IMG/VR virus record: IMGVR_UViG_3300021964_009108 | Location: 1 to 20,277 of that record | DNA: 20,277 nt | Direction: 5' to 3' (one strand) | Source of the DNA: a virus | Part shown: one piece after another, positions 6,988 to 20,277 of the stretch | Layout of the letters: each line of letters opens with the position of its first letter | How positions within the stretch are numbered: position 1 is the stretch's first letter | The notes under the pieces: model-generated | What the model saw: the letters and a program-made list of their open reading frames with translations, nothing else | Databases searched by the model: none | What the model was told of the DNA's origin: nothing | Made by a program: the position numbers and the translations under genes

Positions 6988-6997
6988 TGTAGTCTCC
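6988..6997 (-). promoter_or_regulatory. Ribosome-binding leader GGAGACTACA before the chaperone gene
   Basis: The minus strand reads GGAGACTACA immediately before ATG 6987. The same 10-mer precedes the starts of small terminase, the scaffold candidate and the 219-aa gene. GGAG is the Shine-Dalgarno core; the extension ACTACA is not required for ribosome binding. Confidence 0.75.
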
Positions 6998-7006
6998 AGT
7001 GATGCT

Positions 7007-9191: not shown

Positions 9192-9840
9192 TGTATGCTC
9201 CAGCTCCGAGATCTTCGACTCGCTTGATTGCCTTCTTTGTTAATCGCAGCTCTTCCTGCTTTGACTTGAGTCTGTTTGCTACTTCGGGGATATGTTGATC
9301 TCTCTCTAGTCTGCTCATCGCGCGATTCATGCTGATCAGTCTGAGAGCTGCTATTTGTGGATGCGGAGGATTGAGTGCTCCTTCTCTCATGAGAGAAAGT
9401 CTCCATTGATCAAAAGCGTCCTGATCAAAGTGCTCGATAACTCTCCGGCCTACCTTTTCAAGACGAATCCATTTAGATGTGTGATAGTTACCTTTGTGCG
9501 CAGGATATACGCGCATATAGTCATGCTTGACGGGATCAAGCAGAGTCCATCCTTGATCTTGCATGTGTGTTCTCATGATTGAGCTGTCGATGCGTCCTCC
9601 GACTGCTCTGGTCCCATTGACACCGGGAGTCTCGGATACACTAGACAAGACAGGAAGCAAAAGAGGAATCTTCTCTTTTTTCTTCTTTCCATCTGTCCCT
9701 GTTGTGTATGTGTCGAACACTTTGAGCTCCCAGTTTTCGGGATTGTGTGCAAACAGAAATCGGCTGTTTGCTTTCTTTGGGATACGCGTCTGTGTTTGCG
9801 TCTTCTCTTCCCAAGGTTGTGAATAGTTTGTGTAGTCCAT
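9181..9840 (-). CDS. Conserved-looking head/connector-region protein of unknown function
   Basis: This 219-aa protein starts MDYTNYSQPWEEKTQTQTRI. Its ATG follows the repeated leader GGAGACTACA and a regulatory stem-loop region placed after the capsid gene. The middle (SSIMRTHMQDQGWTLLDPVK, then YPAHKGNYHTSKWIRLEKVG) is rich in aromatic and basic residues. The C-terminal 70 residues are helical and charged (RDQHIPEVANRLKSKQEELR). I do not recognise a family. There is no signal peptide or membrane segment. Its place between the capsid gene and the connector genes suggests a virion or assembly role, but this is context only. Confidence 0.6.
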   Translation of the reverse strand: MDYTNYSQPWEEKTQTQTRIPKKANSRFLFAHNPENWELKVFDTYTTGTDGKKKKEKIPLLLPVLSSVSETPGVNGTRAVGGRIDSSIMRTHMQDQGWTLLDPVKHDYMRVYPAHKGNYHTSKWIRLEKVGRRVIEHFDQDAFDQWRLSLMREGALNPPHPQIAALRLISMNRAMSRLERDQHIPEVANRLKSKQEELRLTKKAIKRVEDLGAGAYNVR

Positions 9841-9841
9841 T

Positions 9842-9918
9842 TGTAGTCTCCAATAAAAAAGAGTTGGGAGACTCGCAGAATTTGGAGACTACAGAAATAA
9901 ATCCTGAAGTCTCCCAAC
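9842..9918 (-). terminator. Post-capsid intrinsic terminator overlapping an alternative RBS-sequestering structure
   Basis: After the capsid stop, the minus-strand RNA has four linked segments in order: GTTGGGAGACT (9918-9908), TGTAGTCTCCAA (9893-9882), AGTCTCCCAAC (9873-9863) and TTGGAGACTACA (9853-9842). The first and third pair perfectly over 11 bp and are followed by TCTTTTTTATT, an intrinsic-terminator layout with a long 34-nt loop. The second and fourth pair perfectly over 12 bp, and the fourth contains the ribosome site of the gene starting at 9840. The first can also pair with the second, and the third with the fourth, over 7 bp. The terminator is well supported; switching is inference. 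Confidence 0.7.
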
Positions 9919-9931
9919 AAAGCGAATCTTT

Positions 9932-11718: not shown

Positions 11719-11742
11719 AGCCCGACCACATCGGGCCGGGCT
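11713..11742 (-). terminator. Intrinsic terminator after the repeat-fibre gene
   Basis: On the minus strand AGCCCGGCC (11742-11734) pairs with GGTCGGGCT (11727-11719), a 9-bp stem with one G-U pair and a 6-nt loop, followed by seven T residues. It lies 22 nt after the stop of the fibre gene and ends the packaging/head transcript. Confidence 0.92.
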
Positions 11743-14815: not shown

Positions 14816-14825
14816 TGTAGTCTCC
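14816..14825 (-). promoter_or_regulatory. Ribosome-binding leader GGAGACTACA before the scaffold gene
   Basis: The minus strand reads GGAGACTACA directly before ATG 14815. This is one of four exact copies at gene starts in the window. Confidence 0.75.
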
Positions 14826-14832
14826 TATGAGG

Positions 14833-19554: not shown

Positions 19555-20214
19555 TCAAGCCTTCTTGAGTGCAACGACATTTGAGCCGACAAGAGAATGC
19601 AGATCAGCTTGTACTCTTTGTCTCAAGATTGGAGGCAATGCAATAATCGTGTTGACGATCTCGCTCATGAGCTGCTCGTCTGTCATTCTCTCATGCGCGT
19701 CGACTGCTCCCTCTTCTGCATCGTATGCCTTCAGTGCTTGCATCATTGTCACGAGCTGTCTCTGTAATGCTGCGTATGCTTGCCATGATCCCGAGTCCTT
19801 TGCTTTTGTCATGGACTGCTTGAGCTCTGATATTTGGATGGTCAGCATGGTCCGATAATCAAGAGAGTCGGCTTTGTTCTGTGTCTCTTCTTCGACTTCG
19901 GGGATTGCGTGCTGTGCATCGTTTTTATATCCATGTCTCCGAGAGAGAAGCCACATTGCAGACTTGACATCTCCTTCCTGGATAGAGTGATTGATCGTCT
20001 CAAGCGCAGTCATTGCAGCATGAGCATCGGCAGCTCTGACATTTTCTGCGAAGGTCTTGAATAATTTTTGTGCTCTTGGCTGCTCTCCTTTCGCAATCCA
20101 TTTGTAAATTGTTGATCGTCCGACTCCGGCAACGTCTGCCGCAATCTGCATTGTCGCGCCCGCTTTGAGCGCTTTGATTATTTTGTCTTGGGTTGCTTGT
20201 AGTTTTTTGCTCAT
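19555..20214 (-). CDS. Terminase small subunit
   Basis: This 219-aa protein begins MSKKLQATQDKIIKALKAGA. Residues 9-44 form a helix-turn-helix (AADVAGVGRSTIYKWIAKGE), the DNA-binding part that recognises the packaging site. A helical middle (SAMWLLSRRHGYKND) and a coiled stretch for oligomer formation follow. The 'SAMWLLSRR...Y' pattern after the HTH is typical of small terminases. The large subunit is four genes downstream. GGAGACTACA is directly before the start. An ordinary HTH regulator is possible, but size, middle region and position favour terminase. Confidence 0.85.
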   Translation of the reverse strand: MSKKLQATQDKIIKALKAGATMQIAADVAGVGRSTIYKWIAKGEQPRAQKLFKTFAENVRAADAHAAMTALETINHSIQEGDVKSAMWLLSRRHGYKNDAQHAIPEVEEETQNKADSLDYRTMLTIQISELKQSMTKAKDSGSWQAYAALQRQLVTMMQALKAYDAEEGAVDAHERMTDEQLMSEIVNTIIALPPILRQRVQADLHSLVGSNVVALKKA

Positions 20215-20223
20215 GTAGTCTCC
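20214..20223 (-). promoter_or_regulatory. Ribosome-binding leader GGAGACTACA before small terminase
   Basis: The minus strand reads GGAGACTACATG, so the last A of the repeated 10-mer is the A of the start codon, the shortest spacing of the four copies. The remaining 54 nt to the window edge are AT-rich and contain no clear promoter that I can support. Confidence 0.75.
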
Positions 20224-20277
20224 AATATTTTTTGAAAAAAATCTGCACGTTTCTCTAAAAGGCCGCGGTACGCGCAG

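Follow-up and report, generated by a model that had tools for sequence, protein, structure and literature searches.

The Mu-gpT-DE RNA motif is a conserved RNA structure lying downstream of a phage capsid gene. Phages can also encode antisense RNAs, such as the c4 RNA of P1 and P7, whose loops contain complementary stretches that bind a phage mRNA around its ribosome binding site (reviewed in PMC12197685). Hairpins 7, 13 and 14 of S. aureus RNAIII and the E. coli CyaR RNA expose an anti-Shine-Dalgarno seed in a loop and bind several mRNA starts with it (PMC2837412), and in the case of SdhX and other 3′-end-derived sRNAs an abundant mRNA supplies the regulatory RNA from its 3′ end and terminator (PMC9438474). 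Cluster K mycobacteriophages carry a short Shine-Dalgarno-containing motif, SAS/ESAS, at many starts; it is found in non-structural genes and has no established partner, and an RNA or a protein was suggested for that role (PMC3203893). Phage start-associated motifs have been on record since 2011, with no known partner; at the locus presented here, one antisense copy of such a motif lies in the predicted loop of a terminator. Our search of the literature on phage antisense regulons and capsid-downstream motifs found nothing closer than these systems.

The analysed stretch of IMG/VR DNA (20,277 nt, hereafter the window) comes from an uncultured phage and contains a run of structural genes, all on the minus strand. 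The capsid-like protein had no PHROG or Pfam match and its AF2 model (pLDDT 34) was unusable, and its presumed identity is drawn from gene order. The terS assignment comes from a PHROG match and that of the scaffold-like 224-aa gene from a weak Pfam match under the cut-off, while the 125-aa tail-chaperone-like gene was named from an overlapping −1 frame, an A AAT TTT heptamer and its place upstream of the tape measure gene. This slippery heptamer (window 6652-6646, minus strand) lies in frame near the 3′ end of the 125-aa gene, and a 93-aa ORF in the −1 frame overlaps that gene and precedes the tape measure gene (genes 6987-6610 and 6709-6428); together they likely mark programmed frameshifting in a gene for a tail assembly chaperone. 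In the 3′-terminal part of the capsid-like gene (10001-9972, minus), 50 nt before the hairpin described below, hexamers resembling promoter elements were seen, together with a TG extension; promoter-like sites in the window were no more frequent than in shuffles.

Table 1. Positions of the features discussed in the text, in window coordinates.
Feature	Sequence	Position	Strand	Basis or remark
Motif at terS	TTGGAGACTACA	20214..20225	(-)	overlaps ATG
Motif at scaffold-like 224-aa gene	TAGGAGACTACA	14816..14827	(-)	
Site iii, leader of head-fibre-like gene	TGGAGACTACAGAAA	13533..13547	(-)	15 bp with terminator loop
Intrinsic terminator between site iii and capsid gene	AGCCCGGCCCGATGTGGTCGGGCT TTTTTT	11719..11742	(-)	
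Capsid-like gene, 316 aa		9932..10882	(-)	named capsid from position only
5′ arm of outer stem P0	GATTCGC	9922..9928	(-)	3′ arm GCGAGTC at 9870-9876
S1, 5′ arm of terminator stem	GTTGGGAGACT	9908..9918	(-)	complementarity and covariation
Inner 5′ arm of terminator stem	CAGGATTT	9899..9906	(-)	fold and covariation
Apical loop with A1 (9882-9893), putative antisense seed	ATTTCTGTAGTCTCC	9884..9898	(-)	fold, genome scans, loop-target energies
Inner 3′ arm of terminator stem	AAATTCTG	9876..9883	(-)	fold and covariation
A2, 3′ arm of terminator stem	AGTCTCCCAAC	9863..9873	(-)	complementarity and covariation
T tract after stem		9855..9862	(-)	kept in most relatives
S2, start-associated motif of post-capsid 219-aa gene	TTGGAGACTACA	9842..9853	(-)	includes GGAG
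Post-capsid gene, 219 aa		9181..9840	(-)	no family match; ATG at 9840
Motif at 125-aa tail-chaperone-like gene	CTGGAGACTACA	6988..6999	(-)	

As listed in Table 1, four complementary segments follow the capsid-like gene in the minus-strand order S1, A1, A2 and S2. They lie where the first-pass annotation had placed them, and their complementarity is real and far above chance. As that annotation had also described, S1 and A2 form a perfect 11-bp terminator stem and A1 pairs with S2 over a perfect 12 bp. A repeat search returned A1 and S2 as a 100% complementary inverted repeat. The folding energy of the stretch is −33.4 kcal/mol, against −21.7 ± 3.1 in shuffles (z −3.8, 0 of 200). The S1:A2 stem extends inward by a second stem (CAGGATTT:AAATTCTG), which the earlier reading had missed, and A1 therefore falls in a 15-nt apical loop when the window adopts this fold. 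A T tract follows this G+C-containing hairpin directly, the arrangement of an intrinsic terminator, and we regard the element as a predicted one. It was not returned by a simple terminator scan because the scan permits loops of 3-8 nt only.

Relatives were collected by capsid-based searches of viral contigs, and the resulting 76 related loci represent 50 distinct post-capsid regions. These comprise clade A (window-like), clade B (capsid 54-57% identical), L118 and the more distant L126-L128; several outgroups (L138, L142, L149, L163, L151-L158) have a plain terminator after the capsid gene, without A1. A search of 50,697 phage records matched neither the capsid region nor its protein, bacterial and archaeal genome contigs yielded no confirmed relative, and the element stayed below the Rfam gathering threshold for every family. 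Among the relatives, 93.5% of cells in the terminator stem are paired, compared with 33-56% in slid controls; 12 of the 19 pairs of the extended stem have changed on both sides (0 of 500 shuffles), and cells with double-sided changes number 44 vs. 12.6 in shuffles. When the A1 core was held unpaired, A1 could be folded as an apical loop of 12-19 nt in all distinct sequences except one partial sequence. All 24 representatives show strong S1:A2 and A1:S2 pairing, and both pairings were lost on swapping partners between clades. The T tract is degraded in three relatives (L045, L047, L048), where the hairpin and loop are kept. An extra small hairpin, located in the first 20 nt right after the capsid stop, was seen in clade B (L106, L107, L108, L109, L111, L113, L053), with both-sided changes recognised by eye (AAGAT..ATCTT, AACAT..ATGTT).

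Beyond being the partner of S2, A1 is the single antisense copy of a motif that reads GGAGACTACA in the window's clade. Motif sites were found at the starts of the terS, scaffold-like, tail-chaperone-like, post-capsid and some early genes, and at one non-start position, termed site iii. S2 is one of several copies ahead of starts in the window, a point that had escaped the first reading. In seven clade-A contigs the antisense copy, A1, occurs once per contig, vs. three to nine sense copies. The clade B motif differs, GGA(n)ACCGACATG, and stands at the starts of like genes, and early regions of related long contigs hold further copies at starts. Early-region genes of L168, L167, L169, L170, L171 and L172 carry the motif in the variants GGAGACAACATG and AGGAGACCGACATG. 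As k-mer enrichment upstream of ATG was too noisy, a motif search was used in its place; the core motif includes the Shine-Dalgarno sequence, and starts are therefore favoured by that alone.

Scans of whole contigs with their own A1 placed the same genes' starts among the best targets in several clades, and in L120 the seven best A1 sites were all at starts or within S2. With the element itself excluded, the number of starts in the top six for own vs. foreign A1 was 5 vs. 0.25 in L120, 4 vs. 0.33 in L121, 3 vs. 0.08 in L119, 3 vs. 0.22 in L161 and 3 vs. 0.67 in the window; enrichment was weak in L164, L128, L118 and L126. Predicted pairing energies of own vs. foreign loops were −18.1 vs. −8.5 kcal/mol for the gpG-like start, −17.1 vs. 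−8.2 for the scaffold start and −15.7 vs. −8.0 for the post-capsid start, compared with −7.7 vs. −6.4 for the capsid start, which served as control. The gpG, scaffold and S2 sites of clade A have an invariant core, outside of which no covariation with the loop is seen, and the argument from starts therefore rests on differences among a few deep clades.

These data bear on the plainest explanation, namely an ordinary terminator next to a favoured Shine-Dalgarno sequence, with the complementarity as a by-product. One would expect a terminator behind a capsid gene, the outgroups have a plain one, and the motif does include GGAG. Yet the motif reaches past the Shine-Dalgarno sequence and differs by clade with the loop changing along, and the capsid start shows no such effect. 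Together with the behaviour of site iii, which is no ribosome site, this makes a by-product very hard to believe.

Site iii, the motif copy away from any start, is the best-matched loop partner in the window's clade and can form up to 15 bp with the whole loop (window UUUCUGUAGUCUCCA : UGGAGACUACAGAAA). In clade A, site iii with its own loop gives a mean of −23.4 kcal/mol vs. −19.7 for all pairs, a value reached in 0 of 20,000 permutations; with one row per distinct A1 the result was 0 of 10,000, and the flanking 24-nt stretches of site iii did not track the loop in the same permutation test. Relatedness of the rows inflates such tests, and individual cases therefore weigh more than p values. 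One of these is L094, in which distant positions have changed in a compensatory way (loop UCUUCGG with site CCGAAGA). L090 and L091 have lost the GGAG from site iii and still form 13 bp with the loop, which also argues against the by-product explanation, and in L164 and L101 S2 is mutated off A1, with the match of site iii to A1 kept. Clade B has no evident site iii. In these comparisons seed and target co-vary away from the locus, at starts between clades only and at site iii also within a clade.

A strong predicted intrinsic terminator separates site iii from the capsid gene (Table 1); similar ones occur between the head-fibre-like and capsid genes in L161, L147 and L137, and L164 has a weaker candidate only. 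Because of this terminator the pairing is probably between separate RNAs, with site iii and A1 on different transcripts most of the time. A short perfect palindrome was also noticed just after site iii (window ~13536-13525, minus) and in L022, L137, L147, L161 and L164, its letters differing between phages (ACACGTGT, AAACATGTTT, AAATGCATTT, AAATTGCAATTT).

Short motifs repeated at gene starts could instead be double-stranded DNA sites for a phage regulator, used in both orientations, so that the complementarity of A1 would reflect binding-site identity. The palindrome that follows site iii would suit such a site, as would promoter-like hexamers (10/12) overlapping site iii in L147. A1, however, falls in the predicted loop of a covarying RNA hairpin, and the match of site iii, unlike that of the start sites, includes the idiosyncratic flanks of A1, which is unexpected for a common protein site. 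Moreover, clade B targets change C to T opposite a constant G of A1 with G-U pairing kept (9 G-U vs. 7 broken, small numbers). Considering this, we find a DNA site distinctly improbable.

The locus has a second predicted fold, in which S1 pairs with A1 and an outer stem, P0, forms after the capsid stop; P0 was missed by the first-pass annotation, and 0 of 20,000 permutations reach its observed value. For the terminated RNA of the window the minimum-energy structure masks A1 (−30.3 vs. −28.2 kcal/mol for the terminator fold), and the terminator fold is the energy minimum in nine others (L037, L041, L044, L053, L101, L105, L109, L111, L118). It had been proposed that mutually exclusive pairings here make a local switch, limiting expression past the capsid gene and tying translation of the next gene to read-through. 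Its parts exist, i.e., the terminator stem, the A1:S2 pairing and the competing S1:A1 fold, and what did not hold in general is the hiding of the ribosome site. A1:S2 covers the ribosome site of the next gene in clade A but does not generally do so, because in clade B S2 sits ~20-45 nt upstream of the real Shine-Dalgarno/start. Of the two small hairpins suggested (S1:A1 plus A2:S2), S1:A1 has the support of its outer stem, although changes in S1:A1 within clade A are G-U only and none is double-sided. As a selected helix A2:S2 was rejected, being weaker than the other pairings and implied by them; the control pairings S1:S2 and A1:A2 were at shuffle level. Covariation of A1 with S2, named earlier as a check, is seen between clades, where the pairing has been rebuilt with other letters, but not beyond the invariant core within clade A (1225 of 10,000 permutations reach the observed value; 25 of 20,000 in an earlier run on 25 rows also having site iii).

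A switch acting in cis only would set S1:A1, with read-through and a free ribosome site, against S1:A2 plus A1:S2, with termination and a hidden site, and A1 would resemble remote motifs merely since S2 is a motif copy. Conservation of both folds, including P0, would fit this, as would the retention of S1:A1 and A1:S2 in three clades and the near-equal energies of the two folds in the window (~2 kcal/mol apart). We consider it unlikely nonetheless, as S2 of clade B is not at the Shine-Dalgarno sequence, S1:A1 lacks double-sided changes in clade A, and the loop co-varies strongly with the non-start site iii and weakly or not with S2 within that clade, with S2 diverged from A1 in the two relatives named above. 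The local switch is also too narrow because A1 matches remote sites, site iii best. Switching between a masked and an exposed loop by S1:A1 and the outer stem is possible but less well supported.

Our preferred reading, which we hold to be somewhat more probable than its negation, is that the terminator behind the capsid-like gene also serves as an antisense hairpin, with A1 in the apical loop as the seed. The predicted pairing of loop and motif is well supported, and regulation by the loop is what we infer from it. Capsid transcripts, terminated or processed, would end in this hairpin, and the loop would base-pair with the Shine-Dalgarno/start regions of the terS, scaffold, tail-chaperone-like, post-capsid and some early genes. 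Pairing would most likely block ribosome binding, with motif-bearing starts probably repressed, and capsid transcription would in this way exert feedback on early genes and on those for assembly factors. In the head-fibre leader, site iii could serve as an additional target, or it could titrate the loop as a sponge. In read-through RNA the loop may pair in cis with S2, giving the pseudoknot considered in the first-pass annotation, and S1:A1 pairing, stabilised by the outer stem, may mask the loop. More tentatively, and with the balance of our judgement somewhat against it, the element could govern a phage-wide RNA regulon, in which the capsid-terminator loop, produced along with capsid transcription, shuts off translation of motif-marked assembly-factor and early genes and has a dedicated sponge or target in a virion-gene leader. 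If so, the motif would drift along with the loop, and other phages may likewise have RNA partners for their start-associated sequences; in the present comparisons the motif and its antisense loop copy co-evolve. Provided that the loop acts, assembly and early genes would be timed through the 3′ end of the capsid message, without a protein regulator.

Compared with the systems described above, the element shares with the Mu-gpT-DE motif its place as an RNA structure downstream of a capsid(-like) gene, a comparison made via Rfam only, where no family matched. The likeness to cluster K SAS/ESAS lies in a short conserved Shine-Dalgarno motif at many starts of one phage; the sequence is different and the phage unrelated, and since neither the GGGATAGGAGCCC consensus nor the 17-bp upstream inverted repeats were found here, the two are similar in kind only. 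In phage Angelica the sole reverse SAS copy lies in a strong hairpin loop (L176:9634, record ~58634; −44.8, z −3.2) in the right-end region, unannotated in several relatives. The exact Angelica-type loop occurs only in Angelica, LilPharaoh, Validus and Niklas. As a conserved parallel this anti-SAS hairpin was rejected, being absent in Keshu, TBond007, Pharb and Yuna, with the SAS copies of Keshu unchanged; as other subclusters are without it, it is only a lead.

Like c4 of P1 and P7, the proposed RNA is phage-encoded and would carry its complementarity in a loop. Unlike c4, which acts on the ant message, one loop here matches many starts and belongs to the capsid transcript's terminator. The proposed RNA would resemble SdhX-type sRNAs in deriving from an mRNA's 3′ end, terminator included, and differs from them in being encoded by a phage and in having its putative seed in the terminator loop itself. 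With RNAIII, whose loops are C-rich, and CyaR it would have in common a hairpin-loop seed complementary to several starts; those RNAs, however, are host-encoded with a general anti-Shine-Dalgarno seed, whereas the seed described here fits a clade-specific extended motif.
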